Assembly: GCF_026210795.1 (NCBI RefSeq)
Contig: NC_089439.1
Coordinates: 4,960,001 to 5,024,000 of the forward strand
Origin: Rhizophagus irregularis
Taxonomy: Eukaryota; Glomeromycota; Glomeromycetes; Glomerales; Glomeraceae
DNA length: 64,000 nt
Direction: 5' to 3'
The notes beneath the pieces are model-generated. The model had not been told where the DNA came from. It did no database searches and saw nothing but the letters and a program-made list of their open reading frames with translations. A program made the position numbers and the translations under genes. Of this stretch, positions 1-59,900 are shown in pieces. How positions within the stretch are numbered: position 1 is the first letter of the stretch; every line of letters starts with the position of its first letter.

Positions 1-1850
1 TTTTTTGATTTTTTAATAACAAAAACGTCAAGTCTGACGTTTTTAATTTAAAAAAAACCAATATTTTTTTGATTTTTATTTTTTAATCACAAAAATGTCA
101 AGTCTGACATTTTTAATCAAAAAAATCATTTTTTTTGATTTTTTAATTACAATAACGTCAAGTCTAACGTTTTTAATCAAAAAAATCATTTTTTTTGATT
201 TTTTAATTACAAAAACATCAAGTCTGACATTTTTAATCAACAAAATCATTTTTTTGATTTTTTAATTACAAAAACGTCAAGTCTGACGTTTTTAATTAAA
301 AAAAACAATATTTTTTTGATTTTTAATTACAAAATGCCAAGTCTGACATTTTTAATTAAAAAATCAATATTTTTTTTGATTTTTAATCACAAAAACATCA
401 AGTCTAACATTTTTAATTAAAAAAAACCAATATTTTTTTTGATTTTTAATCACAAAAACGTCAAGTCTGACGTTTTTAATTAAAAAAATCATTTTTTTGA
501 TTTTTTAATTACAAAAACGTCAAGTCTGACGTTTTTAACTAAAAAAATCAATTTTTTTGATTTTTAATTACAAAATTGTCAAATCTAATGTAAAAAATGA
601 TTTTTTGAATCATAAAAATGTCATGTCTGACGTTTTTAACTAAAAAAATCATTTTTTTTTTGATTTTTTAATTAAAAAACGTCAAGTCTGACGTTTTTTA
701 ACTAAAAAAGTCATTTTTTTGATTTTTTAATTACAAAAACGTCAAGTCTGACGTTTTTTAACTAAAAAAGTCATTTTTTTGATTTTTTTAATTACAAAAA
801 CGTCAAGCCTGACGTTTTTAACTAAAAAAGTCATTTTTTTGATTTTTTAATTACAAAAACGTCAAGCCTGACGTTTTTAATTAAAAAAATCATTTTTCTT
901 ATTTTTAATCACAAAAATGTCATGTCTGACGTTTTTTGACTAAAAAAGTCATTTTTTTTTGATTTTTTAATTACAAAAATGTCAAGTCTGACGTTTTTTA
1001 ACTGAAAATGTCATTTTTTTTGATTTTTTAATTACAAAAACGTCAAGTCTGACGTTTTTTAACTGAAAATATCATTTTTTTTGATTTTTTAATTACAAAA
1101 ACCTCAAGTCTGACGTTTTTTAACTGAAAAAGTCATTTTTTTGATTTTTTAATTACAAAAACGTCAAGCCTGACATTTTTTAACTAAAAAAGTTATTTTT
1201 TTGATTTTTTAATTACAAAAACGTCAAGCCTGACGTTTTTTAACTAAAAAAGTCATTTTTTTGATTTTTTAATTACAAAAACGTCAAGCCTGACATTTTT
1301 TAACTAAAAAAGTCATTTTTTTGATTTTTTAATTACAAAAACGTCAAGCCTGACGTTTTTCAACTAAAAAAGTCATTTTTTTTTGATTTTTTAATTACAA
1401 AAACGTCAAGCCTGACGTTTTTCAACTAAAAAAGTCATTTTTTTTGATTTTTTAATTACAAAAACGTCAAGCCTGATGTTTTTCAACTAAAAAAGTCATT
1501 TTTTCGATTTTTAATCACAAAAATGTAATGTCTGACGTTTTTAACTAAAAAAATCATTTTTTTTGATTTTTAATCACAAAAATGTCATGTCTGACGTTTT
1601 TAACTAAAAAAAACATTTTTTTGATTTTTTAATTACAAAAACGTCAAGTCTGACATTTTTAATTAATAAAATCATTTTTTTTTTGATTTTTTAATTACAA
1701 AAATGCCAAGTCTTACGTTTTTAACCAAAAAAATCAATTTTTTTGATTTTTAATCAAATCTAACGTAAAAAATGATTTTTTAATCATAAAAACGTCAAGT
1801 CTGACGTTTTTAATAAAAAAATCAATTTTCTTTATATTTAATTATAAAAA
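1..1850. repeat. Tandem array of ~60-bp units with a palindromic core
   Basis: About 30 head-to-tail copies of a unit of roughly 60 bp run from the window edge, so the array is cut on the left. Each unit holds an imperfect hairpin, AAAAACGTCA then AGTC or AGCC then TGACGTTTTT (10-bp arms, 4-nt loop), followed by an AT-rich spacer containing CATTTTTTTGATTTTTTAATTAC. Units between about 660 and 1500 are the most uniform. The outer units carry more changes (ATGTCA, CATCAA, TCATGT) and are sometimes shorter, as expected for an array homogenised in its centre. No ORF of note lies inside. It is not a CRISPR array: the spacers are as conserved as the hairpins. Confidence 0.95.
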
Positions 1851-1955
1851 TGTTTGATGACCCGACCCAAAATTTTCAAGTCAATCTGACAGTATAATGA
1901 TTATAACTCACTAATAATTACCAAGTTACTCTAGTTGTTATGAAAATTATAAAGC

Positions 1956-2207
1956 TTACCTCATTTTTGTATAAACTTCAAAAAACAGTATATAGGTCAC
2001 GGGAGATTTACTATTAGCTCTACGCACTTCTTCAGGGCCGGCACTATGTAATGCTGGTCGGAATGATCCACAAATGGAAGCGATCTTCATAATTTGGCTC
2101 ATTCCAGGACCTGACCTTTCTATGTAAAGCTTGGGGTCCTCATTAGACTGGATGATAATTAAAAATAAATATATAATAATTGTGAAACAAAGAATTTTAA
2201 CAATCAA
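1956..2207 (-). CDS. Small hypothetical protein with hydrophobic N-terminus
   Basis: An 83-codon frame on the minus strand begins with a run resembling a signal peptide or membrane anchor (MIVKILCFTIIIYLFLIII), followed by a polar part containing one cysteine (ASICGS). I do not recognise the family. Near its 3' end the sequence reads AAAATGAG then GTAAGC, a good 5' splice site, so the true gene could continue past the stop. No homologous copy is visible in the window. It may be a genuine small secreted protein or a chance frame. Confidence 0.3.
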   Translation of the reverse strand: MIVKILCFTIIIYLFLIIIQSNEDPKLYIERSGPGMSQIMKIASICGSFRPALHSAGPEEVRRANSKSPVTYILFFEVYTKMR

Positions 2208-2439
2208 TTATTAGCTGATCAAATTGATTGCCAATATTTATATTTATTATTTTAAATGCAAAGAAAAGTTGGTAATAATCATCGTTGTTAGATATAATTC
2301 CAGTAACTCAGTCATTTACTTTCCAACAAAGTATATTTATGATTAATGAAAATTTTTAAAGCCTTAATAAATTTCCGTTATTGTAGACAAAGAAAATTTA
2401 AACGAAATTAAACTACAAAAATAATAACAAATTTTATTT

Positions 2440-3015
2440 TTTATATTCAATCTTCAATTTACTAACTTCATTTCTTTTAGCCTTACGCGACTTTTACTAG
2501 AGTTTCACGAGCGAAATTTTCCAAACTTGCTTTCATCTTAGATTGTAAATCCTTCCGGAATATGAGTTTATTTTTATCTATTTTTTTGGTATTCCCCGAT
2601 CTATTCTTAAATATAATTCTTCTCTTCCTGAAAGAAAGATGAATATAAATAAAATGAAAGCCAAACTAATTCAATTTTTTAATTAAAAAAAAAAGAACAG
2701 AAATGTAATTCAATTTAAACTTACAGCGAGAATAAAGTATGTTACGTCAACTAAATTTTACAAAATAAAAGTTTATTTACTTTTTTTTTTTAAGAAATAA
2801 AGTAATAGAAATAGGTTAAATGGCTTTTCCATTATAACGATTAAGCCAATTCTACGAAAAGATTCTTTGATGATTTTTTCCATTTTTTCCTTATAATTTT
2901 CTCTTCTTAAATAGTAAAAATAAATAGTTTAATTTTTATTCTTACATACATCTTCATCTATTGTTTTATCTATATTATTGGCATGTTTTTTTAGTAGTCA
3001 TCAATTTTTTTAGCC
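2440..3015 (-). pseudogene. Decayed Myb-like gene copy, minus strand
   Basis: On the minus strand this stretch aligns piece by piece with the intact genes at 5524-6414 and 14931-15986. The last-exon segment is at 2460-2640 (reverse complements of GCGAAATTTTCCAAA and TCTTAGATTGTAAATCCTTCC), the 26-nt exon region near 2727-2755, and the first-exon and intron-1 region near 2885-3010 (ends ACATACATCTTCATCTATTG). Stops and indels interrupt every exon. It lies divergently to the intact plus-strand gene at 3843, the arrangement seen at the other loci, so it is the dead half of a pair. Confidence 0.75.
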
Positions 3016-3050
3016 TTCTGTTTTGTGATTAAAACTCGTGGCCTTAAATT

Positions 3051-3300
3051 GTGTAAAGCTCTGCATGAGCCGGCTCGAGCTGAGTAGAGCCAAAATTCAA
3101 GCCAGCTTAACTCGATTATAATTGGCCGGACGAGATTTTAAATATATAGAATGATCAGCTGATGATCACATGCGCAAATCATAACTCGTGAGCCAGCTCG
3201 AACCAATTGATTGCGAGCCGCTGCTCGGCTCGGCTCACTCTACCTGGTTCGAGAGCTGTCTCGAGCTGGCATGGCTCGTGTGGAGCATTACATTTGTTGG
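3051..3300. repeat. Word-reiterating element, word GAGCTCG/CGAGCTC
   Basis: A GC-rich island in AT-rich DNA. Short words such as AGCCGGCTCGAGCT, GAGCCAGCTCGA and CGAGCTGGCATGGCTCG recur in both orientations. The ends are imperfect inverted copies: left AAAGCTCTGCATGAGCC, right GGCATGGCTCGTGTGGAGC. It sits between the two divergent Myb-like copies. A related island occupies the same position upstream of the gene at 63232. No coding capacity; most simply a non-autonomous transposon. Confidence 0.6.
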
Positions 3301-3439
3301 TCAAACCTTTTTTGGCCAGCAATTTTTCATGGTTATTTTTTTTTTAAAAAAAAAGTCAATTAATAAACAGGAGTGTTTATTCATAATAATTACATATAAA
3401 TTTGTCATTATTACAACCTGAAACTTTATTCAAATGCAA

Positions 3440-3640
3440 TGGCTTTTTTTGATTGTTAAATTATAGTTTGAGAAACGTAATTTATTTAGTATTTATTTAG
3501 TATTAAAAAAAAAACTGTTATTAAGTTTTACACATCCTTTTTTGATTATAATAATTTTGAACAATAGAACGTTCCTTTTTTGATTGTGAAATTTTTGTAC
3601 AATCAAATTTATTCCTTTTTTGATTGAATAAAGTTTTTGT
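3440..3640 (+). promoter_or_regulatory. Direct repeats of CCTTTTTTGATTGT upstream of a Myb-like gene
   Basis: Four copies of a CYTTTTTTGATTG-type motif lie at about 3445, 3532, 3572 and 3613, some followed by GTGAAATTTTTGTACAAT or a relative. The same motif, repeated two to three times at 35-45-bp spacing, precedes the Myb-like loci at 6680-6740, 16128-16250 and 62976-63065. It is a candidate promoter element or duplicated upstream block. Function is inferred only from position and recurrence. Confidence 0.5.
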
Positions 3641-3842
3641 CCGACATTTGATTGTTATTAATTAATCACGTAATCAAATTGTACTCGGTGATGGATCACG
3701 TGATAGAACAATGACCATTCAAAAGCTACTAAACATAGTTAAATAACTTTTCTTCCGATGTTTATATATTATATTTTGAACTAAAAAGAATGTATAAATA
3801 CTGTATCGAAGAATTTTATTTATTTTTTTTTAAAAAAAAAAT

Positions 3843-4665
3843 ATGGTCGAACCAAAAAAGAAACAACAGAAAAAGTTACAAACGAAAAAGATAAAAACAG
3901 AAAAGATAGAATTAGTACGTATTAATTTTTTGAAAAAAAAATTCTTTCCAATTCATCGTGTTTTTTTATTTTATTTTTTTTTAAAAAAAAATTCTCGTAG
4001 TTTGATGATGAGATTATAAGTGCTATGAATGAATATAAAAATGAACCTAACCCATATATAAAGATTAGTAAAAAAATCAATAAAGGATTTACCTCAAAAC
4101 AAATTCGTCAGCGGTAAATATTAATTTAATTATGATTTAATTTTTTTTTTCGTAAAAATTTATTTTATTTTATTCATAATTTAGTTGGATAAGTCAACTC
4201 GATCCACGTCGTAAGTAAATTTTACCTTATTTAAGCTTTCTTAAATTGATTGTGTAATTTGATTTTTTTCTAGTCTGTCACAATGAACTCGATGAGGATG
4301 AAAGATCATACATCAATGAATGGGTTAAAGAATATAAAAACCAGAATCCATCTGATAAAATTTGCTGGACAAAATTAATTTTAAAGATGGACAAAAAATT
4401 CGGTAAATTACGTACCGAAAATAGGGTGAAAAATTTTTGGTACTTAAAAAAAAGACAAGAAAGACGACGAAGGCAACTACCTTCAAAAGTTGATGCATCA
4501 TCTTCCCCTCAAGATAACAACATCTTAAAAAGCGTGTCATTTTGTTCTCAAGATAACAACATCCCAAAAAGCGTTTTATTTTGTTTTCAAGATAACAACG
4601 TTCCAACAACCATATCGCCTTCCCCTCAAGATAATAATATTCCGACAGTATCACCTTCACCTTAA
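3843..4665 (+). CDS. Two-repeat Myb-like DNA-binding protein
   Basis: Four exons: 3843-3914, 4001-4113, 4185-4210 and 4274-4665, each joined by GT-AG (donors GTACGT, GTAAAT, GTAAGT) with phases 0, 2 and 1. The joined frame encodes about 200 residues. A lysine-rich N-terminus is followed by a first Myb-like repeat (EYKNEPN, ISKKINKGFTSKQIRQ, RWISQLDP) and a second (LDEDERSYINEWVKEY, a WTKL segment, FGKLRTENRVKNFWY). The tail repeats the word QDNN five times. Ordered tryptophans and the R-W...LDP joint are typical of R2R3-type Myb repeats, so nuclear DNA binding is likely; the target is unknown. The copies at 17546 and 63232 share the exon sizes 113 and 26 nt. A T10A10 run directly precedes the start codon. 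Confidence 0.85.
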
Positions 4666-5523
4666 GATAATAAACGTACTAAAACGCGTATCAAGCCAAG
4701 TTTCTGACAAGATGAAAATCAAAAATTTTGTTAATTTAGTAAATAATACACCCTAATTAGCATAAAAAAACAATCATGTTGTTTTATTGTATAGGATAGA
4801 AATACTTATAAAATTATTATATATTTTAATCAACAGATTTATTATGTGAAAATGAATTAATAGAAAGTCCAACATATTTGCAAATATTAAACTCTAGAAA
4901 TAAAAAAATCTTGATAACATGAAAGTCTAAAGAATAAAATTCGCATTTCTTAATCACGCAATCGATCAGCGTTACATTATAAACTTCAAGTGAAATTATT
5001 TACATCATATTCGAATATCTAATTCGTAAATACTCTTATCTTTTGTCTTAAAACTACATATAACTAATACATGCCTGTAACAGAATTTTAAAATTACAAC
5101 TCCTTTAAACGAAATTAATGAAGTAAACCGATCATATTTTATATTATAAAAACCTGACATTTTTCAAAATTAGAATATACTAATGTATTTTAAGATGTAA
5201 GAAAGGTGATCAGATCGTTTACTTTCTAACAATAATGAAAATTTTAATTTATAATTGATTGAAGAGAAATTCTTTAGTGTCTTATAATAATAATAATTGC
5301 CGTAATTGTAAACAAGCAAAAAATTTTAACGGTTTGTTCTAAATACGTTATTTATTTACTTTTGGATTTGAAGAAGTATAATTAAAAATATAAAAGTTAC
5401 AAAAAAAAACATTATAACTACAAGTTATTAAAAAATATAACTGAAAGCTAAAAAAAATATAATTAAAAGTTATAAAAAAGAAAGAAAATATAAAGATACA
5501 ATAATGAAGAGTGCTTAAATAAA
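4666..5523. other. Intergenic, duplicated 3' flank of the minus-strand Myb-like gene
   Basis: No gene seen. The stretch about 4930-5170 (CGCATTTCTTAATCAC, then CGTTACATT) is closely repeated at 34570-34870, next to another copy of the same gene family. Whole loci with flanks were therefore duplicated, not just coding sequence. The final 150 bp before 5524 are A/T tracts. Confidence 0.6.
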
Positions 5524-9409: not shown

Positions 9410-9454
9410 CTATAAACAGGTTGAGGTACCTATAGGGAGAGAGCCATCGCTGCT
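9410..9454. repeat. Left half of a small palindrome split by the MULE; ends in the target duplication
   Basis: CTATAAACAGGTTGAGGTA (9410-9428) is matched in reverse complement, with two mismatches, by 14139-14157 on the far side of the MULE. ATCGCTGCT at 9446-9454 repeats at 14131-14139. The MULE therefore landed in the loop of a roughly 80-bp hairpin-like sequence, creating a 9-bp target duplication. Confidence 0.8.
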
Positions 9455-9640
9455 GCAAATATATCGTTTTTGATTAAGGAGGTGATGCTTTTTGATTATA
9501 GAAGTTAGTTGTACAAACTGTTGTATCGTTTTTGATTATTGAAAAAATAAATGTATCATTTTTGATTATTGAAAAAAAAATTCTATCGTTTTTGATTATT
9601 GAAAAAAAATGTATCATTTTTGATTATTCGATAGTATCAC
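9455..9640 (+). repeat. Left terminal inverted repeat of the MULE
   Basis: A 186-bp repeat containing five or six iterations of TATCRTTTTTGATTATTGAAA after an outer tip GCAAATATATCG. The internal iterations are probably multiple transposase-binding sites. It is the reverse complement of 13945-14130. Confidence 0.93.
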
Positions 9641-9873
9641 ATGGTCACATGCATAGATTCGACATACTGTACATATCGGAGACTTTATTCACTAAATAAT
9701 TTCAAATTACTAAACTTATTAATCGTTATTTTTGTTTCCTTACTATTTACTGTTTCTTGTATATTTTTATTAAGCCATTTAAAACAAAGAATTGCCAACA
9801 TTCATATGTCATAAATTTAATCCTTATTTTCTCAAAATTTGTCTTTATTACAACTAAAAGACAATAGTATTAA

Positions 9874-12800
9874 TCAATCATCTATTTCATTGCTATGCAT
9901 ATAAACTCCAAATTCAATACTATCATTTAAAATTTCTTTCGCATCTTCAAGTGTTATACTATTATTACGGTCCTCTTGAATCAGACGTAATGTTACTTCT
10001 GGTACTAGAACTTCGTAAATAAAATCCATAGGGTCTAATGGGTACGTTTTGTCTTTTGTGAGATTATTAGAGTTAACAAACAATTCTATTAAAGTATTAA
10101 CAATAGTATATAACCCATTAAACCCATAATAACCTGGCTGTAAATTAGTAAAGCTAATTAATAAAATATAAACAAAATTTATATTCAAACAGATAATTAC
10201 CAACCTGAAAAACTTCAAATCGATTCATGAGCATCATTGGCGCCTTGGCTTTATTATATCCGACTTCTTTATATATTGAAGATGCAATATCCCAATAGTA
10301 ACTTGAAATATTTCCGTTAATAATTTCAATGAGATCTTTTTCAAATTTGATTATGCGTGATGGAAGTACATTAAAATCGATATATTCAGGATATCCTTTT
10401 GATAATCCATGTGGAACAATATTCAATTCACCATGATGCATTATACAAAAAGACCAACGTTCTTCTTCTGTGATTGGCTTGTTTTGTAGATTTTGTAACT
10501 GGTCTTTTATCTTTTCTGGTAAAATATCTGGTAGGATATTATCACAATAGGGGCATAAATTGTGAGAATTAGGTACTAAATCAAATTCTAAATCCAAGTT
10601 TAAATCATCATTAGATGGCAGTTCTGGAAGATATTGAAATACATTGCGGGGTGGGCTTGGCATTATAAACGATGATGATGATGCAAATGAAGATGTACTT
10701 CTTCTATCTATTAAATAAATATAGGTAAAGAAATTAATAATACAGATATTAATGTTATTACGTTAAATATATATCTTTACCAGTACTAATTGAAGATAAA
10801 TTATCTTCTCGTTTTCGTTTAAGATTTCGAATTTGTTTTGTTTTCCTTTGTTGTATAGAAAACGTATTACCAGATTGTGATTGGTTTGGTAAATTTATTC
10901 TATGGGACGATCGAGGTTTAGCAGATAATTTAGGAGGTGCGCCTAAATTTGATTTTGTTCTTTCACTTAATTCTGCTGGCCGAAATGGATCTTTAATCTC
11001 CTGAGATGACCGTTTAAGTGGATAAAATATTTTATTACCTAATGAGCAAAAGTAAGATTAATATAATAAATAACAATAATAATTTTTAAAAAATTATTTC
11101 AAACATCTTACCTTGCATATTATATAATCTAATAATTTCTTGATAAGAATCTTCCATGTCACCTTGATATATTACATTATTTTTTATAGACGCGGGAACT
11201 ACTCGTTCCTTATTACGAAAATAGAGAACAAGATTTTTCTTTGCTTCGTTTACAACTTCTAGATGTCCTTTTTGTTGTGTTTCTATAAGCAAAGTGGCTG
11301 CATGACAGTGCCTACATTTATCACGTAATGAACTATTCCATATGTATTCCCAGCATGTACATTCACCAGTAATAACATTACATATATGAAATCCTTGTTC
11401 TAATATTACATTTTCGGATAATAAAGATTTCATAAGAAAATTGATCATATCATTTAATTTTCGTACAATTTCCTCATCTAGACGCAAAGGCTTATCATCA
11501 TAAGAAGATACGAATAAATCATCAGATTTTTTTTTAACAAGAAAAGTATTTTGGTCTGATGATATCTTAACCATATTAAGAAGAAAATCTAATCTTCCTT
11601 GATTTAATCTTCGAAGTTTATCACAACATATCATATCATCTTTAGTTTGCTATAAATAATTTAAAATAAATTAATTTAATAATATTATTTAAAAATGATA
11701 ACGAAAAAATTCTTACCTGTTCAATCGTTTGAGTATTGAATAAAGTAACTAAACCAGATTCAAACTTATTTAAATCTTCATGACTTACAATAGTTTCACT
11801 TTGAAATTTTATTCCATACATTCGTTCAACAAATGTCAATGGTGTTTGTTTACCACTATATACTGCTTCAATTGTCCTATTGATCCGTTCTGTAAAATTG
11901 TTCGTAGTCCATGGAAATCTGTTTGTAATGTTTTTGGAAATACGACCAGCATCAATAAAACTTAATTTCCACTCCGTGCACATCCAATTTTTAGATAAAT
12001 CATCTATTAATTTATCTTTTTTAGTTTTTTCCAATGGAAGAGTGTTAATAAATTCGATATATTTCTTAGCCATTTCAATGGCAGTTTCTTCAGTTCGACT
12101 ACGACCTACAATTTTAAACGCTAATGCTATTGGATATCTAAACAATAAATAATTAATTAGTTATCAATTTTAATAAAAAAAAATTAATATAATATATAAC
12201 TTACCTGAATTTTGCAGGTATCTGCCATTTATTTAAATTTTCACTAAAAGTTTTCATAATATGAAACCAACATAAAATTGGTTTATGTGAAGCATTTTGG
12301 ATAGCAAGTTTAGATGGTCTATGCTTATCAATTAAGATATATGGCTTCCAATTATTGTTTTGACATTCACGAACTCGTTGAAATCCGTTTCCAGATAAAA
12401 GATTTTCATAGTACCACTTGTGTTCACAGAACTCGTTATCACATGGGATATTTTTTTTAATAGCGTCAATAGCCAATTTTATAGTATGATGATTTTCCTT
12501 ATTAAATAGCGCTAATATATATATTTTATTTACAATTTAATAAATTACAATAAATTATATACTAAATAATTTAATATATGTCAAATTTTACTTACCAAAT
12601 GCAACAGGCAATCCGCAACCAGCACTATTCTCAGTAACAATTGATAATACCGGTGCACGGTCCAAATTTAAATCATATTTACCATCTATTCCGATACAGA
12701 TTTTACCGTAATCACGAGCATTTTTTAACCAAAACTCATCAGAAATTGTAAGTTGATAATATCGGTCAGGTGAATCAGCTGGTTGATTAATGTCTGCTAT

Positions 12801-13676
12801 TTGATAATATAATATAAAACCTTGAGATTTTAATATATTATTTACTAAACTATCAAGCTGAGTCCAAGGACCAGTATCATCCTTTAATTTCTTATCATCT
12901 CTGGCAACAAATTGCCGGAGTTTGTCATTATTACATATTATACGTTGGCTTGCTAATGCATTGTTAATTACTTCTTCTGATGCACCATTAAGTGATGTTA
13001 ATAATTTCGCTTTTATCCCTTTGGCTGTCCTGTGGTCTGCTCTTCTGCTTAATGCTATCGAATCTCTGACAGAATAAGTTAAATTTATTCTTGAAATTTT
13101 AGGAATATTATTATTGTAAAATGTACGATGAGTTCCTTGAATGGTAATTCGCAATGGATTTTCTAATGATAGCCAAGATAACCGACATTCAGAAATAACT
13201 CTGACACTACAATGGTGCATATCATTTCCATTTTTCAAATTATTTCGTAAATTATAATTTTCACAATTTTCATTACATTTTCCAACACTACCGCATAATC
13301 TTTGACAGTTGCCTCCATCACCTGAACAATACATAACCCAATACCAACATTGTTGGTTTTTGGCTAATCCTAATTCAATTTGAGAAACCAGATCTCTTCC
13401 TAAACTGGTTAAAACTAAAACATCATCAATACGATTTGTTGATTTTACCGTTCCAGTTTTAGTTTTCCATGCTAAGTAATCTATTGCCCCTTGTACACGT
13501 TCTACCGTTAAGATTCCAGCTTTAACAAGTTTAGGAGTAACTTGTCTACTTTGATTTTTTAAGCGATAATTTTTTAAAAGATTTGCATTTGATATATACC
13601 ATTCTGCAGCACGACCAAATGGTACATTTACTGAGCCATCATCGTTGTATTTGATTTGATTTTCGTAAGTTTCCAT
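9874..13676 (-). CDS. MULE transposase with SWIM zinc finger fused to a C-terminal RTC4-like domain
   Basis: Seven exons (13676-12596, 12511-12205, 12137-11717, 11649-11112, 11038-10781, 10707-10205, 10137-9874) join in phase to 1,123 residues without a stop. I chose the ATG at 13676 over an upstream in-frame one because it opens the hydrophilic domain. A cysteine-rich N-terminal part is followed by a DDE-type core: Asp331 (IGIDGKY), Asp422 (ILIDKH), C441-x2-H444, and Glu546 (TTNNFTERINR). A SWIM finger (C700, C702, C715, H717) and a basic linker ending KRKRE follow. Residues about 920-1115 match the pattern I know for RTC4-like domains: CPYC, FCIMHHGE, GYPEYIDFN, PGYYGFNG, EVLVPE, LIQED. RTC4 in yeast is linked to telomere capping. 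The fusion suggests a targeting or chromatin role, which is inference. Confidence 0.88.
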
Positions 13677-13944
13677 ATTATAATATATAGTAACGTTACA
13701 CAAATTTATAGAAAGAAAATTATTACAAATAATTATCACGTAAAAAATATAAACAAGGTTATAAAACGCAAAATATATTATAAAAACTATTATATAATAA
13801 AGAAAAAAATATCAAAAGAGAAATCAAAATTTTTGGAAAAGAAAAAGAATTGAACCATTTGTCGTGTGAAAAGTATTATGTGAACGCGTTAAATGTTATA
13901 CAATGATACATTAACTTGTTAAGTATAAATTAAATAAATAAAAC

Positions 13945-14130
13945 GTGATACTATCGAATAATCAAAAATAATACATTTTTTTTCAATAATCAAAAATGAT
14001 AGAATTTTTTTTTCAATAATCAAAAATGATACATTTATTTTTTCAATAATCAAAAACGATACAACAGTTTGTACAACTAACTTCTATAATCAAAAAGCAT
14101 CACCTCCTTAATCAAAAACGATATATTTGC
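13945..14130 (-). repeat. Right terminal inverted repeat of the MULE
   Basis: Inverted copy of 9455-9640. The transposase start codon lies about 270 bp inside it, so this end probably also carries the promoter. The duplication ATCGCTGCT follows at 14131-14139. Confidence 0.93.
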
Positions 14131-14157
14131 ATCGCTGCTACCTCCGCCTGTTTATAG

Positions 14158-44671: not shown

Positions 44672-47600
44672 ATGTTTAACTGTCCATATCAGAATTGTAA
44701 AAGAACCTTTTCACGCCATGCTGCTCTTCGTGAACATACAAAATCTCATAAAGGTCAGGCCTATTGGGAAATATTAAACAGTGTTTCGGAAGATTCTTGT
44801 ATAGAAAAAGTAGAGTGTTCCAGAGAATTTGTGATAACGGTAATTATAACAATGTGTACTTAAATTTTATACTTTTAATTAATATTGTATAACCTTTTGT
44901 ATACTTTTTATAAAGGATAATGTAGATGAACGTGAATACAATGTAGATAACGATCATAATGTAGATGATGATAACAATGCCATTATGGAAATTGTAAATG
45001 AAGATGTTGTCAATGAAAATATTGCTGATGAAAGTGTTGTAGACAGAAGTGTCATAGATGAAAATATTATGGATAGAGGTATTATGGATGAAAGTGATAG
45101 TGATACTGATTTTGAAACATCTGAAACCATCATCGATATTGAGGAAGAGCCAGTTTATGATCATATTCATAACTACACTTTATATACTCCTGAACAAACT
45201 GATAAAATATCCTTAATTGATACAAGGTCTATTTCAAGTCGTAATATACCACAATTTCCTGATGCTGCATATTCTGAATTTATGGAGCTCATATCAACAC
45301 ATCACTTATCTAATTCAGCTGGAAATGATATATTGAAATGGTTTCGCAAACACCATCTCCGAGACGATATTTTTTACCAACAAATACAGTACAAGGTCGC
45401 GAATTTGTTAGTTCTATGGATATTAAACATTTATTATATCTCAAAACAAAAATATTAAAATATGAAGATGAAGAATATTTTCTTTATCATCGACCTATTT
45501 TTGAAGCTATCAAAGAACTATTATCTAATATCGATATCATAAATCATTGCCAATGGAATTGTTCACCGGATTATATTACCAATGAAAATGGACATCGTGA
45601 GCGTGTATATGGAGAGCAATGGTCTGGAATGTGGTGGGAAAACGCTCAAAAATCAATTGGGACAGGATTAAAAAAGGTCTTATCTATAATATTATATTCC
45701 GATGCAACTACATTAGACCATTTTGGCAAAAGTTCAGAACATCCTGTTTATTTATCATTAGGTAATATACCTAATTGGCGTAGAAACAAACGGGATGCTA
45801 AAGTCTTATTAGGAATTTTGCCTAAGCTGAAACCACTTCATAATCGTAAGGAAAATAAATCAGAATTTGCATCTGCTAAAAGGATGTTATATCAATATTG
45901 TTTTGATATTATGACTAAACCAATATATGAATGTGATGGATTAGATATTAAAACAGACAATCAAATAATTTGGGCATTTCCTTTTCTATCAGAATTTATA
46001 GGTGATCTGCCTGAAGATGCATCATTAACGTTAACTTACAGCTCATCTCGGAGTAGTCATCCTTGTCATATTTGTACTGTAACAATTGATGAATTAAATA
46101 ATATTAATTTATCGCAATCTCAAATAGAACTAAGAACTCCCAATAATATGCAGGTTGTAATAAATAACAACCTTTGTCATGAATATTCTATTCATCCAAT
46201 GCGAAATATCTTTTGGAAGTTCCCGTAAGAATATTTTATAAAAATTACTTTATCCAATATTTAACTTTAAATAACTTAAAATAATTTTATATCCATTTTA
46301 TAATGAATTGAATATTTATAGTGCTGCAGTACCAGATCGCATGCACCATTGCGATCTTGGTTTATTCAATTATCAAGTTAATTTTGCTAGAAATTATATT
46401 CAATTATATTGTGGGAAAGATGGAATTGATGAATTTGATAAACGTTTGGCAAAGATCCCACGTTTTCCCGAGCTAAAGATTTTTAAGAGTGGTCTTGGTA
46501 ATATTGCACATTTTACAGCAGCAGAATTTCGAAATATGATGAAACAATTGGTCTTTGTTATTGATGGTCTAATTGTTGCAAAACGCAAATCAAATTTAAG
46601 TTTATTTCAAGCAAAACAACATGATTCTAAGCTTGTAGATTTATTTGTATCCTGGAATAGAATATATATTTTTAGCCGTAAGGATACTTTTACAGATTCA
46701 GAACTTGATAACTTTCAGGTACATTATAAAATTTTAAAATATATAATTATAAGTATTTTATTAATATTCTTTGATCTATTATTTTAGAAAATGATTATTG
46801 ATTGGGCAAATAAATTTATTAATTTATTTACACCAATTGCAGATACTGAAATGAAATACCCAAAACTACACAATTGGCAACATCACATTATTGATGCTAT
46901 ACAAAACTATGGTGCAATTAATGGTTTCACGACTGAAACTTATGAGTCGTTACATAAATTTTATATTAAAGCTCCATATAGAATGTCCAATCGGCGGGAT
47001 GCAACTTCACAAATAATTAATTTGGTATAGTTCAATTATCATACCGTAACTATTAATTTATTATATAAAATTAATCAATCATTTATATCATATTAGGTGC
47101 GACATGATAGTATTTTAAATTATCTCCAAAAAATAACATCTCCACCTTCAATCAAGAAGCATCGTCAAATTAGAACATTAGGTGGAATTGAGGGCAGCTT
47201 TACATTAGATACCTTTAATGACTTTGTTGATGAATATAGAACTACTCACTTTTTAGCATTAGAAGCTGAAAAAGCATTTGAAGTATTAATTGACTCATTA
47301 AATCAATATTTTGATCTTATCGAAAATATTACTGATAAAGATGTTGAAGCAACAATTATTAAGTGGTATACTAGTGCATTTATTAGAGAAGTTGATACTA
47401 TACGAGCTAAAAGCAATTATTACAATGCACCTACTTTTAGTGATATTGCAATTAATATGAACGAAGAGGAGGCTGAAAAATATAATACAATTGATGGAGT
47501 ATGTTTTGCAAAGGTAAAAATAAGAATTATTATTTTGCATATTTTTATTTATTTATAAAAAAATTTTTTTATTGGATTTTAATGTTATTTGGATTAAAAA

Positions 47601-49088: not shown

Positions 49089-52000
49089 TTAATGATCCTC
49101 AATCATGCAATCAAAACCCTGAGACTCTTCTTGAACTAAAATTTCAGTAAGTTTGCGACTTGTATAATATGCTTGTGGATGAGATTGCATAATATAAGCA
49201 TTCGCTTGTCCTTGTAATAAAGCTTGGTCTGCCTCTACAAATTCTTCCATATCATTTTTTAATTGATTATCAGTAATAGGTACTATATATATATAATTTC
49301 CATCCCTGTTTATTTCATAATATTTATTAATACATCTAATCCATTCAGATATAATATTTTCAAGCATTATTATGGTTGGTCTATTGGAAGGATTTAAATC
49401 CCAACATTTTTTCATTAAATCTATATAACATTTTGGAGTATTTTTTATAATTTCAGGACGTTTCCCTTCACAAATACTTAAACTAAGCTGAAGATCATGT
49501 GCTTCATGATTAAATGGAGGGATACCTGATGTAAATTCCCACATTATTATTGAAAAACTATAAATATCACTTGCTGGTGTATAAGGTTTTTTTCTTAATA
49601 TTTCAGGCGCCATATAAGGTAAAACTCCATAAATTTCATTAACTTTATTGACAGAATCTTGTAAATTACTTATAGGTTTACATAATCCTAAATCAATAAT
49701 AAATAACTCATTATAACTATCTGATACTAAAATATTACCATCATGAAAATCACCATGAGTTAAATTTGATTCATGGATTACTTTAAGTCCCAATATTATT
49801 TTTTTCAATAATTGTAATTTTTCTTGCCACTTGGATTTAATTATATCAGATAAACATTTTCTCAAACTTCCTTTTTTCGCATAACTCATTACTATTATAT
49901 AATTTAAATTATTTGGATCTTGGGTAATTCCAAAAAATTGAATAAATTTCGAAAATGACTTTTTCTGACAATTGTAATGATATTTCCACTATGTAAATAA
50001 CAAAAAAAATTATTAAACTTTTGCACAAGGAAATAAATTTGCTATTAAATATAAATACTATACCTCATCAAGAAATTCACTATTTAAACTTGATGAATTA
50101 TTAAGTTTTTTAAGAATAACCTCAAAACATGTTTGTCTATTCCATTGTTGTTTGTCAAAATTCCAAGTAAAAATAGGCCCGTCTGACCAGATAGCTTTAT
50201 GAATTTCACTAAATCCTCCTTTAGTATAATAATCAATACTTGATAAATTACTGTAAGGGATCCACTCTAAAATTTCATAACTATTTTTAGCATTTATTTG
50301 TGCTTCTTGAATAAATTTATCAATAAATTTATTTTTACTAGTCCACTTTGAAAAATCTTGTTGAAATCGTTTAGTATTACATTGTTGGCACCATTGGTAG
50401 TCAGTATTAGGTTGCAAGCATTCATAACAATATACAACTTCATTTTTAGAATTTGTTTTGTTACTTTCTACTGCTTTTTGATGCCAATAAAAAGCTTTAT
50501 TTAAATTCCTTTCTGTTCCTTCTCCATTTCTATAACATGCAGCTAAATTAAATATTGCGTTAATATGACCTTTTTCTGCTGCTTTTTGACACCAATGAAA
50601 GGTTTTTTCTAAATTCTTTTCAGTTCCTACTCCATTTCTATAACATATGCCTAGGATATTCATTGCAACAATATGATCTTTTTCTGCTGCTTTTTGATAC
50701 CAATGAAAAGTTTTTTTAAAATTCTTTTCTGTTCCTTTTCCATCATAATATTTATTGGCTAGATTAAACATAGCATCAATATGATCTTTTTCTGCTGCTT
50801 TTTGACACCAATGAAAGGCTTTTTCTAAATTCTTTTCTGTTCCTATTCCACTTTCATAACATATACCTAGGCTATTCATTGCAATAATATAATCTTTTTC
50901 TGCTGCTTTTTGATACCAATGAAAAGCTTTTTCTAAATTCTTTTCTGTTCCTTCTCCACTTTCATAACATACACCTAGGTTGTTCATTGCAATAATATGA
51001 TCTTTTTCTGCTGCTTTTTGATACCAATAAAAAGCTTTTTCTAAATTCTTTTCTGTTCCTTCTCCATTATAATATCTATCAGCTAAATTAAACATTGCAT
51101 CAATATGATCTTTTTTTGCTGCTTTTTGATACCAATAAAAGGCTTTTTCTAAATTCTTTTCTGTTCCTTTTCCGCTTTCATAACATATACCTAGGTTATT
51201 CATTGCAATAATATGATCTTTTTCTGCTGCTTTTTGACACCAATGAAAGGTTTTTTCCAAATTCTTTTCTGTTTCTTCTCCATTATAATATCTATTGGCT
51301 AAATTAAACATTGCATCAACATGATCTTTTTCTGCTGCTTTTTGACACCAATGAAAGGCTTTTTCTAAATTCTTTTCTGTTCCTTCTCCACTTTCATAAC
51401 ATACAACTAGGTTGTTCATTGCAATAATATGATCTTTTTCTGCTGCTTTTTGATACCAATGAAAAGCTTTTTCTAAATTCTTTTCTGTTTCTTCTCCATT
51501 ATAATATCTATTGGCTAAATTAAACATTGCATCAATATGATCTTTTTCTGCTGCTTTTTGATACCAATGAAAGGCTTTTTCTAAATTCTTTTCTGTTCCT
51601 TTTCCACTTTCATAACATATACCTAGGTTGTTCATTGCAATAATATAATCATTTTCTGCTGCTTTTTGATACCAATGAAAAGCTTTTTCTAAATTCTTTT
51701 CAGTTCCTTTTCCACTTTCATAACATATACCTAGGTTATTCATTGCAATAATATGATCTTTTTCTGCTGCTTTTTGACACCAATGAAAGGCTTTTTCTAA
51801 ATTCTTTTCTGTTCCTTCTCCACTTTCATAACATACACCTAGGTTGTTCATTGCAATAATATGATCTTTTTCTGCTGCTTTTTGATACCAATGAAAAGCT
51901 TTTTCTAAATTCTTTTCTGTTCCTTCTCCATTATAATATCTATAGGCTAAATTAAACATTGCATCAATATAATCTTTTTTTGCTGCTTTTTGATACCAAT

Positions 52001-53417
52001 GAAAGGCTTTTTCTAAATTCTTTTCAGTTCCTTTTCCACTTTCATAACATATACCTAGGTTATTTATTGCAATAATATGATCTTTTTCTGCTGCTTTTTG
52101 ATACCAATGAAAAGCTTTTTCTAAATTCTTTTCTGTTTCTTCTCCATTATAATATCTATTGGCTAAATTAAACATTGCATCAATATGATCTTTTTCTGCT
52201 GCTTTTTGATACCAATAAAAGGCTTTTTCTAAATTCTTTTCTGTTCCTTCTCCACTTTCATAACATATGCCTAGGTTGTTCATTGCAATAATATGATCTT
52301 TTTCTGCTGCTTTTTGATACCAATAAAAGGCTTTTTCTAAATTCTTTTCTGTTCCTTCTCCACTTTCATAACATATGCCTAGGTTGTTCATTGCAATAAT
52401 ATGATCTTTTTCTGCTGCTTTTTGATACCAATAAAAGGCTTTTTCTAAATTCTTTTCTGTTTCTTCTCCACTTTCATAACATATGCCTAGGTTGTTCATT
52501 GCATCAATATGATCTTTTTCTGCTGCTTTTTGATACCAAAGAAAAGCTTTTTCTAAATTCTTTTCAGTTCCTTTTCCACTTTCATAACATATACCTAGGT
52601 TATTCATTGCAATAATATGATCTTTTTCTGCTGCTTTTTGATACCAATGAAAAGCCTTTTTTAAATTCTTTTCAGTTCCTTTTCCACTTTTATAACATAC
52701 ACCTAGGTTATTCATTGCAATAATATGATTTTTTTCTGCTGCTTTTTGATACCAATGAAAAGCTTTTTCTAAATTCTTTTCTGTTCCTTCTCTATTATAA
52801 TATCTATAGGCTAAATTAAACATTGCATCAATATGATCTTTTTCTGCTGCTTTTTGATACCAATAAAAGGCTTTTTCTAAATTCTTTTCTGTTCCTTCTC
52901 CACTTTCATAACATATGCCTAGGTTGTTCATTGCAATAATATGATCTTTTTCTGCTGCTTTTTGATACCAATGAAAAGCTTTTTCTAAATTCTTTTCTGT
53001 TCCTACTCCACTTTCATAACATACACCTAGGCTATTCATTGCAATAATATAATCTTTTTCTGCTGCTTTTTGATACCAATGAAAGGCTTTTTCTAAATTC
53101 TTTTCTGTTCCTTTTCCACTTTCATAACATACACCTAGGTTATTCATGGCAATAATATGATCTTTTTCTGCTGCTTTTTGATACCAATAAAAGGCTTTTT
53201 CTAAATTCTTTTCTGCTCCTTCTCCATTCTTATAACAGTTGGCCAAATTAAACATTGCTTCTTTATCACCATTTTCTGCTAATTTTTCTAAAGAATTAAT
53301 ACATTCTTTACACCATAACTCTTCAGTAAAAGCTATATTACAATATGAACAATTTTTTGTGTCTATTGTAACAGTATCTTCATCTGAGATATTTAATTTA
53401 TTAAATTCAGTTTCCAT
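49089..53417 (-). CDS. Sel1-repeat protein fused to a C-terminal protein kinase domain
   Basis: Two exons, 53417-50064 and 49988-49089 (GTATAG donor, ATAG acceptor), give 1,417 residues. N-terminal CxxC...CxxC knuckle (CSYCNIAFTEELWCKEC), then 26 consecutive 36-residue Sel1-like repeats (pattern AMNNLGICYESGEGTEKNL), a second knuckle (CYECLQPNTDYQWCQQC), and a kinase domain: GGFS at 1067-1070, VILKKL lysine, HGD at 1196-1198 with Asn1203, DLG at 1217-1219, APE at 1245-1247, and the Arg of PSNRPT. HGD replaces HRD and DLG replaces DFG, variants compatible with activity. Sel1 arrays act as protein-binding solenoids, so it is probably a scaffolded signalling kinase. The kinase part is unlikely to be the separate gene a frame search suggests: exon 2 opens in phase 33 codons before its first ATG. 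Confidence 0.9.
50490..53270 (-). repeat. 26 nearly identical 108-bp coding repeats
   Basis: Each Sel1 motif is one 108-bp unit. Most units differ at only a few positions, many of them amino-acid-changing pairs (MNNLGICYES versus MFNLANRYYNG types) that recur as a two-type pattern. The high identity indicates recent expansion or gene conversion. Repeat number may be miscounted by assembly. Confidence 0.95.
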
Positions 53418-54809
53418 TTGTTATTAAGTAATTTGTTTTACTAAAAAAAAAAATTATTTTTTTAACAAAATTTTTTTTTCTTATTAGCTGTGAATGAAGC
53501 TTCTAAAAAGAAATATTCTAACCAAATGTAGAAATTACAACAAAGAAAAAATTTTTCGGTTAAAAGAAATTAAACGCTGATTATTATAGTAAAATTTAAG
53601 AAATTCACATACAAATTAGGATAGTCATTTATTATTTTTGTCACGTAATAAAAGTGGTGTTACATACGTTTCTTAATCCTATTGGGTTTGACAAGGGGAT
53701 TATTGACAATCTTTGTCAAACAATAATTGCATGAACTGTTTAGCCTAGAAGTCTAGAACATTCATCATAGTAAACAAACATACAATATAATGATGTTTTC
53801 ATATAAAGGAATTATATATACCACATTTAATTTATTTATTTATGCACATTTCTCATTTCTGTAATTGATCATATTTAATCCAAAAACGGTTAACAAAAGC
53901 GGCAAATATTTGTACAAAAAATTCGTTTTAAACTTCAAACGGGTATAATCTGTTTTGAAATCGGACACATTTTTTTTGTAACCATCTAATTCCATTGTTT
54001 TCCGATAGTTTTTTCCATAGATTTAACAGAGAATAAGCAACGTTTAGATTGTACAAAATATAATAGAGTCATATACAATATGATGAAAATGATCATCATT
54101 AATGGAAAAGTGACGTCCAACATTTTCCTGAGGCGATAATTATGATAATTTATGAGATACTCAATTTTTTACAGAATAATTTTCTTATATGATAAATACG
54201 AATCTATGAAAAAAAATATTTTTCCATTATTCAAATTTCGAATAATATCTATCTTATTCTATTGAAATTTTCCTACTCATAGATGAACTTAATTCTGGGA
54301 AGCGCAGTTATGTGATATGACTAAAGAAAAATATGAAAAATATTATGGATACTACCAAACCGTCAAGGTAATTTATTTATAATAATTTGCTGTATATATT
54401 AAATTTTTTGAAATTATAAAGGATAAAGTTGTAACTTTTATAAGAGAAAGCATTAGTAGACAAAATATTACTGTCGAAGATGAAAGCAAGAAAGGTTACT
54501 TTTCAAAATGATAAATTCTTAAAATGATATTTTTTTGGCTACCAAAAAAAATAAATAAATAAATAAATAAATAAAAGAAAAAAAAATATATTAAATAAAA
54601 AGTCTTATAACTATAACAGATAATTCATATTATTGCATTAACCATCGTATTGTACATTTTGTGTAACTGCGGCTACTGCGCCTAAATTTAATGATCAAAT
54701 GACGATGAAGGAAAATTTTTTTAATAGTAATAGAAAAAAATAAAAATCCGATTTATAGAGTTAAATAAATGCGTGCTAAACTATGTTCATTAAAATTGAA
54801 TCACTACAT
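53418..54809. other. Mostly gene-free; possible two-exon fragment at 54317-54511
   Basis: A short frame with good splice sites (exons 54317-54367 and 54422-54511, 46 residues: MTKEKYEKYYGYYQTVK, then DKVVTFIRESISRQN) could be the last part of a decayed gene. The KYEKYYGYY-KV helix loosely resembles the end of an HMG box, but this is weak. An (AAAT)n run lies at 54548-54575. The remainder shows nothing. Confidence 0.35.
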
Positions 54810-56922: not shown

Positions 56923-59900
56923 AACGGTAAACCGTTACGTAGTCCGGAGCTCGTCACGTGATTTGTAATCATCTAGACGCTGAGAGGATAATTAGCTAAG
57001 AAATGTCACAGTCAAAGGGGGAATCAATGTATCGAGAAAAGTTTAATTAAAATATAATTTATCTGAATACAGCATAGGGTAGAAAATAATAATAAATTTA
57101 GTTGAAATAATTAGATAATTGTGTTGGCTAGTGATAAAATAAATCAATTAATGTATGAAACAATCATATTTTAATAAATAAAGAACAATTAGAACAGAAC
57201 AATTTGAACGTCAAAGCCACAAAATCACAATGTCCCAAATAACAATAAAATCACACACTAATTTTTATTTTCTCACTATAAAATAAAAGATAAAAACTAA
57301 ATAAGATGAATAAATTTTACTAATACAGGTATTTTGATAAGGACAAAAAAAAATCCAAGACACCAGAACATCAAGAGGCTCATCTGAGAAAAAAATATAA
57401 AATAAAAATATAAAAATGAATGATTCCACTAATCCAGAAACTATACGAAAACGAAACAAAAAAAAACAAGAGACAAATGAACAGCGATCAAAACGTCTTG
57501 CACGAGAACGAGAATTAAAATGGCAAAAAAGAGCAAGGGAAACAGAACAACAACATGAGGAGCGTCTTCAAAGTATTCGGGAAGGAAGAAAAAGGAAAAA
57601 GATGACGGAAACTAACAGTGATCGGGAAAATCGGAAAATCGGGAAAACCAACGTAGACAAGCTGCGCGTAAACGAACCCGTAAATTAAAAAACCGAAATG
57701 TATTAAAAGGAAGAAACATCAACCAACAAACACGACAAGATCATGAAGGACGAGAAATAGAGGAAGCTTACGTGGAAAGTGATAACACGGATTCCGACTC
57801 TCATCCTACACGGAATTCAGCCACCACCATGAGCGAAGAAGAAATCAGTATGTTGCAGGATTTCCGCATAAAAATGGAGAATATACGTTATAATCTTTGC
57901 AACGTATGTCAAGAGCGAATACCTTTATTAACGCTTGTCAAAGGGACATGTAAAAGGTGTTATTATGAAAAAAATACCGGGGGTACGCCAAAAAAGTTTT
58001 CTGGGGGTAATAATATGCATCCAGGTGACGTTCCCGATGAACTTAAAGGACTTAGTGAAATAGAAGAAATGCTTATTTCTCAGGTTTTCACTGTGATGAC
58101 AGTATACCGGCTGCGTGGTGGACAAAACGGCTATAGAGGACACGTGATTAATTTTCCTCAGGATATCCAGGGCTTTACGAAACAACTTCCGCGTGATCCA
58201 AGATCTCTGGATGTTCTTGTTGTACGCCGGCAATCATCAAACAATTCAATGGTGTTCAGGGATTTTACTGTACGAAGGAGCAAAGTGTGTAAAGCACTAT
58301 TATGGTTAAAGGAAAACAATCCTTACTATGAAGACATAATATTTGACACAAATATTCTTCAATCCTTACCCGAGAATGATTCCATTTTCAACATGCTCCC
58401 ACAACTTCAAGATGATGAATCGGGAGAAGATGACGGCGATAACATTGAAGACGGAGAAGACGTATCAAGAACGTTTGTACCATTAATGCCCCCAACACAA
58501 CGAGAAGGTGAAGCCATAAACGCAACTCTTGATCGAATGCAAAATGACAATCCTTCGTCGCTATGGCCTGAGATCGAAGGCGTACCTATAAACGAATTCC
58601 ATACGCCTGGTTACATGGTTAGAGCTTTCCCCACGCTTTATCCATATGGAAGAGCTGACCTTCGTTCAGCACGTGTTAAAGAAGTAAAGCCTGCCGAATA
58701 TTTCAGGCATCTTTTATGGTACAAAGATGGAAGATTCGCGCAACATCCACGATGGAGATATTTTGCGCTAAATTCATCTATGAGGTGGAGGGCATTACAA
58801 GAAGGTCAAATATACGTTAAGCAGAATCTAAAAGAAGAACAGATTAACGTATCGGATATACAAGAAATGATAGCCAACGGAGACAACAAAATAGCAGATC
58901 GCATAATGAGATATGGAGAAGGTTTAAGAGGAACCCGACAATTCTGGATAGCGAAAAGAAAGGAATTGTTAGATTTGATAAAACAAATAGGAGCAGACGG
59001 GCTAATATTTTTTACCTTTAGCGCCGCGGATATGCATTGGCCCGAATTACACAAACTGATGGAAAATAATGATCATAATGGAGATGAGGCTGAATCATCT
59101 AAACGTCGGCAACAGAACATAATTGATAATCTGCACATCGCAACGTGGTTTTTTAAACAAAGATTCGAAACATTCTTTAAAGATGTGTTGGTAAACCGAT
59201 GGGAATTAGAGGATTATTGGTACCGATACGAGTGGCAGCATAGGGGAAGTGTACATATACACAGAATCGGAAAGAAAAAAAATGCACCTAAAATAGACTG
59301 GAGTGCAATGAAAGATAATGAGGATGTAATGAATAATGTAATTCAATATCTTGATTCGATAGTGACAACAATCAATCCAGATATGCATGCTCCGATACCA
59401 GAAAGACATCCATGTCAGAAGAGAGCAGAAGAAATAAACGATGATTTACAAGACTATGTTGAATTGATAAACAAATTACAAAGACATACCAAATGTAGTC
59501 CATCATATTGTTTGCGTAGCAAACACGGACAACAGGTTTGTAGATTCGGATACCCAAAAGAGAGAAATGATCATTCGTTTATACACGAGGATAATCATGG
59601 ACAACCTGAATTAGTGACATCAAGGAACGACCCATATCTAAACCCGCACAACAGGTTGCAATTGCAAGGTTGGCGAGCGAATGTTGATATCAAACCTGTC
59701 CTCACCATACACGCAGCCTTGCAATATATCTCTAAATACGCGAGCAAATCCGAACCCAAATCAGTAGCTTTCACAGAAATATTTAATCAAATTCTAAACA
59801 AAAGTAATTCGGATGATAATTCACTTGCATCAATCCAGAAACTCTTACTAAACAGTATTGCAGAAAGAGACATATCGGCACAAGAAACGTGTCACCTACT

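Follow-up and report, generated by a model that had tools for sequence, protein, structure and literature searches.

A Mutator-like element of Rhizophagus irregularis with a predicted transposase–RTC4 fusion protein

A precedent for accessory functions encoded by Mutator-like elements (MULEs) exists in plants, where elements carry captured host domains, for example in the ULP1-type KI-MULEs and the VANDAL anti-silencing proteins; both the domains and the hosts differ from those considered here. The subject of this study is a MULE at positions 9455–14130 of a 64,000-nucleotide stretch of the Rhizophagus irregularis genome (contig NC_089439.1, 4,960,001–5,024,000; the whole stretch is hereafter called the window), whose predicted transposase ends in an RTC4 module. 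The part of a MULE survey covered here gives 8–11 bp as the length of target-site duplications, and its group table includes FAR1, SWIM, CCHC, C2H2, PHD and other domains, RTC4 not being among them (PMC6446971). Yeast Rtc4 localizes to both cytosol and nucleus and has genetic links to telomere maintenance; a 2018 paper described its function as unclear (PMC6162548, in the part covered). RTC4 proteins number 45 in Puccinia novopanici versus 15 in P. sorghi (PMC9370660, likewise in part).

An earlier note on this DNA, made from the sequence alone, knew of no described MULE–RTC4 fusion. The same holds for the open-access literature that we searched, outside which most subscription papers lie: no description of a transposase–RTC4 fusion was found there, and the terms “RTC4” and “MULE” are both absent from the main text of a screen for fusions between transposable elements and other domains (PMC12062965). 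Public databases already place both Pfam labels, MULE and RTC4, on two proteins, P0002 and P0004.

The window element and its predicted protein

The sequence at 9455–14130 is a complete and presumably autonomous MULE. Its terminal inverted repeats (TIRs), each 186 bp long, lie at 9455–9640 (plus strand) and 13945–14130 (minus strand) and differ by 2 mismatches, and the element is flanked by two identical 9-mers, ATCGCTGCT, at 9446–9454 and 14131–14139 (no strand assigned), which form a perfect 9-bp target-site duplication. Both the long TIRs and the length of the duplication, which falls within 8–11 bp, are those of a MULE. The minus strand holds a frame of 1,123 residues in seven exons, with six GT..AG introns and no internal stops. 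The completeness of the element, asserted in the earlier note, is borne out by these repeats, this duplication and this frame.

Exon 1 (12596–13676, on the minus strand like all the others) contains the start codon, the N-terminal transposase region, the start of the MULE domain and the candidate catalytic residue D331 (12684–12686). Candidates for the second and third catalytic residues, D422 (12327–12329) and E546 (11888–11890), fall in exon 2 (12205–12511) and exon 3 (11717–12137), respectively. All three were assigned by motif position, and the second is invariant in 16 of 16 aligned rows. The transposase ends in exon 4 (11112–11649), which includes a SWIM-like CxC..CxH motif at 11308–11361 (C700-x-C702 ... 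C715-x-H717, residues 700–717), also located by motif position. The DDE-type residues and SWIM finger announced in the earlier note are thus present as candidates and as a motif, and the Pfam SWIM profile has no match in the window protein. The Pfam MULE profile (PF10551) aligns with residues 328–380 at 27.1 bits, just below its cut-off of 27.6, and the close homologues P0002 and P0004 bear precomputed PF10551 labels.

A linker is encoded by exon 5 (10781–11038). Exon 6 (10205–10707) contains a PSPxRxxFxxLPE motif (recognized by eye), a CPYC..C..H motif and the N-terminal part of RTC4, and exon 7 (9874–10137) contains the C-terminal part of RTC4 (PGYYG ... EVLVPE ... LIQED) and the stop codon. 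The Pfam RTC4 profile (PF14474) matches residues 1000–1117 with an E-value of 6.4e-23 and a score of 81.6 bits, over the curated cut-off of 23.7, and the match covers profile positions 2–120 of 121. By coordinates derived from the exon table it occupies 9895–10315 on the minus strand, split by the intron at 10138–10204. This match upholds the earlier proposal of a transposase joined to RTC4, for which a profile search without an RTC4 match had been named as one refutation.

Upstream in the protein, the C-x2-C ... C-x2-H motif (residues 920–959; 10436–10555, minus strand) is likely to bind zinc, and its three C residues and its H do not vary among nine aligned RTC4 sequences (four MULE modules, one transposase-free gene on C30 and four basidiomycete proteins), which have 26 invariant columns. 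As read from the gene model, one protein would run from a DDE-type transposase that includes a SWIM-like motif, through a basic linker, to a complete RTC4 module made up of the CPYC..C..H motif and the RTC4-like domain. A comparison of the whole window protein with solved structures gave no match up to an E-value of 1. A search with the RTC4 module alignment returned two weak matches (best E-value 0.21), which are taken as chance.

Copies, relatives and a second RTC4-bearing lineage

The left TIR has 37 matches across the 146.7 Mb of the genome searched (32 contigs). Ten full-length copies were defined as elements whose two ends lie 4.7 to 8.2 kb apart, a pair on C26 separated by about 23 kb and single-ended matches being left out. 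A perfect 9-bp duplication flanks eight of the ten, each with a different sequence. The copies on C18 (L039) and C5 (L042) have both TIR ends and no target duplication, which may be due to recombination between copies.

The fused frame is unbroken in three copies, namely the window copy and those on C31 and C26. Perfect duplications at eight of ten copies and open fused frames in three exceed what chance would give. The coding lengths of the latter two each differ from that of the window copy by 3 bases. The C31 and C26 copies have the same coding sequence and a single difference in 4,758 bases, yet their flanks differ and each has its own perfect 9-bp duplication; consequently, the family must have moved very recently. 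In some of the broken copies, DNA that otherwise nearly matches the window copy is interrupted by single-base gaps, which may be assembly errors. Between the window and C31 copies, the ratio of nonsynonymous to synonymous substitution rates (dN/dS) is 0.188 overall, with values of 0.164 for the transposase and 0.18 for RTC4, so that, on few changes, RTC4 evolves about as slowly as the transposase.

A database search with the whole protein found 17 proteins, of which three (P0002, P0003 and P0004) carry a precomputed RTC4 label; a fourth close protein, P0005, ends inside the RTC4 module. P0003, from Rhizophagus clarus, is a predicted fused protein of 1,123 residues that is 87% identical to the window protein over 100% of its length (by region, the transposase reaches 88.7%, the linker 82.6% and RTC4 86.0%). 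Shortened models from Glomus cerebriforme (P0036) and R. diaphanus (P0024 and P0027) appear by eye to join the transposase end to parts of the module, and RTC4 in P0036 is confirmed by Pfam at 39.8 bits. The 13 remaining relatives (P0006–P0018; 37 to 52% identity), from Rhizophagus, Diversispora, Gigaspora and one other source, have no precomputed RTC4 label, and a rescan of nine of them gave no RTC4 match; for some of these relatives the gene model may be truncated.

A diverged RTC4 lineage with the domain order of the window protein is represented by the partial protein P0040 and by a locus at C12:3780852–3784876. This lineage is 54.2% identical to the window protein in the transposase part and 48.8% in RTC4. 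The C12 copy has stops in exon 1 and TIR arms of 82 bp (91%), and no target duplication was seen by eye. In the transposase tree, the window protein, the R. clarus protein and P0040 are grouped at 85/91, which is below the tool's star level, among the 13 relatives without RTC4, a placement that suits a single gain of RTC4 in that clade. The genome to which the window belongs contains eight more relatives of exon 1 (52 to 56% identity, covering at least 355 of 360 residues). Among the RTC4 matches listed, one lies near one of the eight (C12) and none near the other seven.

The RTC4 profile has 21 matches in this genome, whereas 14 control genomes, not stated to be fungal, yield none. The surroundings of all 21 were examined. 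Eleven belong to the window family and one to the C12 lineage, and five (C23, C2:3.41 Mb, C13, C19 and C2:6.09 Mb, the last with only the transposase end present) belong to MULEs of another kind, described below as FAR1-type. Two further pieces, on C29 and C15, are surrounded by DNA that matches copies of this FAR1-type kind at 96% and 93% identity. A module on C6 stands alone (L052, C6:4751500–4760000, minus strand, about 4060–5300); it is preceded by a basic motif that resembles, by eye, that of the MULE linkers, and may represent a remnant that has decayed or been adopted by the host. Finally, a gene on C30 (L053, C30:1671000–1679500, plus strand, about 2685–4569) has no transposase in view and begins with a long open frame of 358 residues without a Pfam match. 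An open frame at 1690–2092 of the same locus, upstream of the RTC4 gene, may encode a prefoldin subunit, which it resembles. A more sensitive search with exon 6 gave 35 matches, among them a place on C3 that reads as a remnant of the C12 lineage. The census omits seven weak exon-6 places (C5:2.54 Mb, C24, C26:1.31 Mb, C17, C30:1.85 Mb, C11:3.35 Mb and C6:4.95 Mb).

The FAR1-type kind is best represented by the gene on C23 (L050, C23:2640000–2648000; 980–4286, plus strand), which can be spliced, by removal of four GT..AG introns, into a stop-free frame of 1,006 residues; four splice alternatives of 997 to 1,008 residues score equally. Its predicted protein matches the Pfam FAR1, MULE and RTC4 profiles at 44.9, 84.4 and 76.3 bits, each over the cut-off, and SWIM at 15.1 bits, below the cut-off of 19.6. 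Over approximately its first 520 residues, this transposase shows no BLASTP similarity of significance to that of the window (best E-value 0.051); the identity between the two RTC4 modules is 43%. For this element, neither clear TIRs nor a target duplication could be accepted; the repeats are imperfect, with a common TTATCCTAGACC core, and the possible duplications lie in a T run and are indistinguishable from chance. RTC4 also ends the transposases of this distant lineage, and a fungal domain therefore recurs in this genome as a C-terminal module of MULE transposases. Because the second transposase lineage that carries it is so different, RTC4 would seem to do something useful for these transposons.

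Origin and possible role of the RTC4 module

A phase-0 intron immediately before PGYYG is common to the window, C23 and C30 genes. Because it is shared with the transposase-free gene on C30, we infer that the module was captured at the DNA level, and a cellular RTC4 gene would be the source, since a transposase domain is absent from all five basidiomycete RTC4 proteins scanned (two from Sanghuangporus and one each from Ramaria, Amanita and Mycena). The long basidiomycete RTC4 proteins had been considered as further fusions; P0041, P0043, P0045 and P0046, the four scanned of six, show RTC4 alone. In the RTC4 tree, all ten glomeromycete rows stand apart from the five basidiomycete rows (100/100). 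Within the former, the C12 module and the lone C6 module are joined at 96/99, and C30 and C23 at 80/41 only. A single shared origin of the RTC4 rows of the FAR1-MULEs was also considered and set aside; the four rows, which include partial sequences, do not form one clade, with a borderline p of 0.0495 in the approximately unbiased (AU) test.

The best explanation of these observations, to which we give a probability of about one half, is a recently mobile autonomous MULE encoding a single transposase–RTC4 protein, in which the module was captured from a cellular gene and contacts a host factor. The transposase part would carry out cutting and joining at the TIRs as MULEs usually do, while the C-terminal RTC4 module would make contact with a nuclear factor of the host that acts at DNA ends or on chromatin. 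Such contact could help the transposase complex to reach permissive sites, or could allow the breaks to be tolerated and repaired. Among the mechanisms considered, contact with a host factor appears the likeliest.

The earlier note suggested that the fusion may serve the targeting of integration sites or the avoidance of silencing. The simplest form of site targeting, the aiming of insertions at telomeres, is unsupported in this small sample. Of the ten full-length copies, three are situated no more than 250 kb from a contig end, against 1.1 expected (P = 0.09), and the distances to contig ends fit uniform placement (Kolmogorov–Smirnov p = 0.40), a mild preference being possible with ten copies. 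Contig ends serve here as a proxy for telomeres; telomeric repeats are reported at both ends of 17 of the 32 scaffolds of the assembly (PMC10234402, in the part covered).

Several observations weigh against the explanation preferred here. The absence of a clear insertion bias to contig ends among the ten copies is one of them. The frames of seven of these copies are shifted or stopped in the alignment. The RTC4 dN/dS value derives from just seven changes (four synonymous and three nonsynonymous). The MULE profile falls slightly short of its cut-off not only in the window protein but also in R. clarus P0003 (23.2 bits), and the RTC4 module resembles no solved structure in searches with the whole protein and with the module alignment. 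Lastly, the RTC4 tree leaves the window trio unjoined to C12, and the order among the glomeromycete modules is poorly resolved.

A more far-reaching proposal is made tentatively: cellular RTC4 genes may have been captured at least twice, by deeply separated glomeromycete MULE lineages, and the module kept by selection as a C-terminal host interface through which the transposons exploit or oppose a little-understood chromosome-end or DNA-damage pathway.

Rather doubtful is an alternative in which RTC4 is a DNA-binding or oligomerization module, its CPYC..C..H motif aiding the binding of the long TIRs or the formation of a complex, with no link to a host pathway. The conservation of the C/H motif agrees with such a role. 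However, the two RTC4-bearing MULE lineages lack significant BLASTP similarity in their transposases, which makes a shared role in TIR binding less natural, and we know of no DNA-binding signature in the regions around PGYYG, VLVPE and LI.ED. It is also unlikely, and a little more so, that the module is a decoy that mimics cellular RTC4 and obstructs a pathway of the host (DNA-damage signalling or silencing) that would limit transposition. A protein to be mimicked is available, in that the transposase-free C30 gene is present in the same genome and the fused modules have their 26 invariant columns in common with it and with the basidiomycete proteins; the dual location, telomere-maintenance genetics and unclear function of yeast Rtc4 could also accommodate a decoy (PMC6162548, as above). 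This analysis gave no sign, however, of cellular RTC4 restraining transposons, and a decoy would not need continued fusion to the transposase.

That the module is merely a passenger, a captured fragment without function for the element, is very improbable. MULEs are prone to acquiring fragments of host genes (PMC6446971, in the part covered) and seven of the ten copies are broken, but R. clarus keeps the frame, the dN/dS of RTC4 is low (on few changes) and RTC4 recurs in a distant lineage. The weakest alternative, in which a splice model falsely joins two adjacent genes, a transposase and an RTC4 gene, is scarcely credible: although exons are skipped, or the end is reached early, in some public models (P0002, P0004 and P0005), such an artefact is unlikely because the predictions from R. 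irregularis (P0002 and P0004) and R. clarus (P0003) and the partial protein of the diverged lineage, P0040, all link the same parts, and the frame is open across introns 4–6 in three of the ten copies.

Neighbouring features and comparison with described systems

Elsewhere in the window, a Helitron element or remnant lies at 57622–62059 on the plus strand, in which a Helitron-like N-terminal domain scores 109.5 bits and part of a PIF1-like helicase 36.5 bits, with DUF6570 also present. A Plavaka transposase fragment (123.9 bits) is found at 45329–46228 on the plus strand, and the minus strand at 49089–53420 holds a very long Sel1-repeat frame (1,120 residues) and, after it, a protein kinase frame.

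The window element is a genuine and recent MULE that carries a new accessory domain, and the recurrence of that domain in a distant lineage is of greater interest than a single fusion would be. The presence of RTC4 at the same place in two distant MULE lineages, conserved between species and carried by recently moved elements, offers an outside handle on the role of RTC4, in that whatever RTC4 touches may serve a transposon. It also provides a testable case of a transposase with its own putative host-interaction module, the fungus in question being reported to have 40 Argonaute-like genes (PMC11075540, in the part covered). If repeated capture and a host interface were true, cellular RTC4 would be part of a contest between these fungi and their transposons.

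In its long TIRs and 9-bp duplication, the window element is like other members of the MULE superfamily, and its candidate DDE-type residues and SWIM-like motif would fit that superfamily; it is unlike the MULEs in the part of the survey covered here in its C-terminal RTC4 module. That module resembles the fungal RTC4 proteins (PF14474) in having both the CPYC..C..H motif and a full RTC4-like domain, but, unlike a cellular RTC4 gene, which would lack a transposase and lie outside a transposon, it is fused to a transposase and enclosed by TIRs. A further parallel is provided by the FAR1-MULEs represented on C23, which likewise end in RTC4 with the same intron before PGYYG and which differ from the window protein in possessing an N-terminal FAR1 domain.

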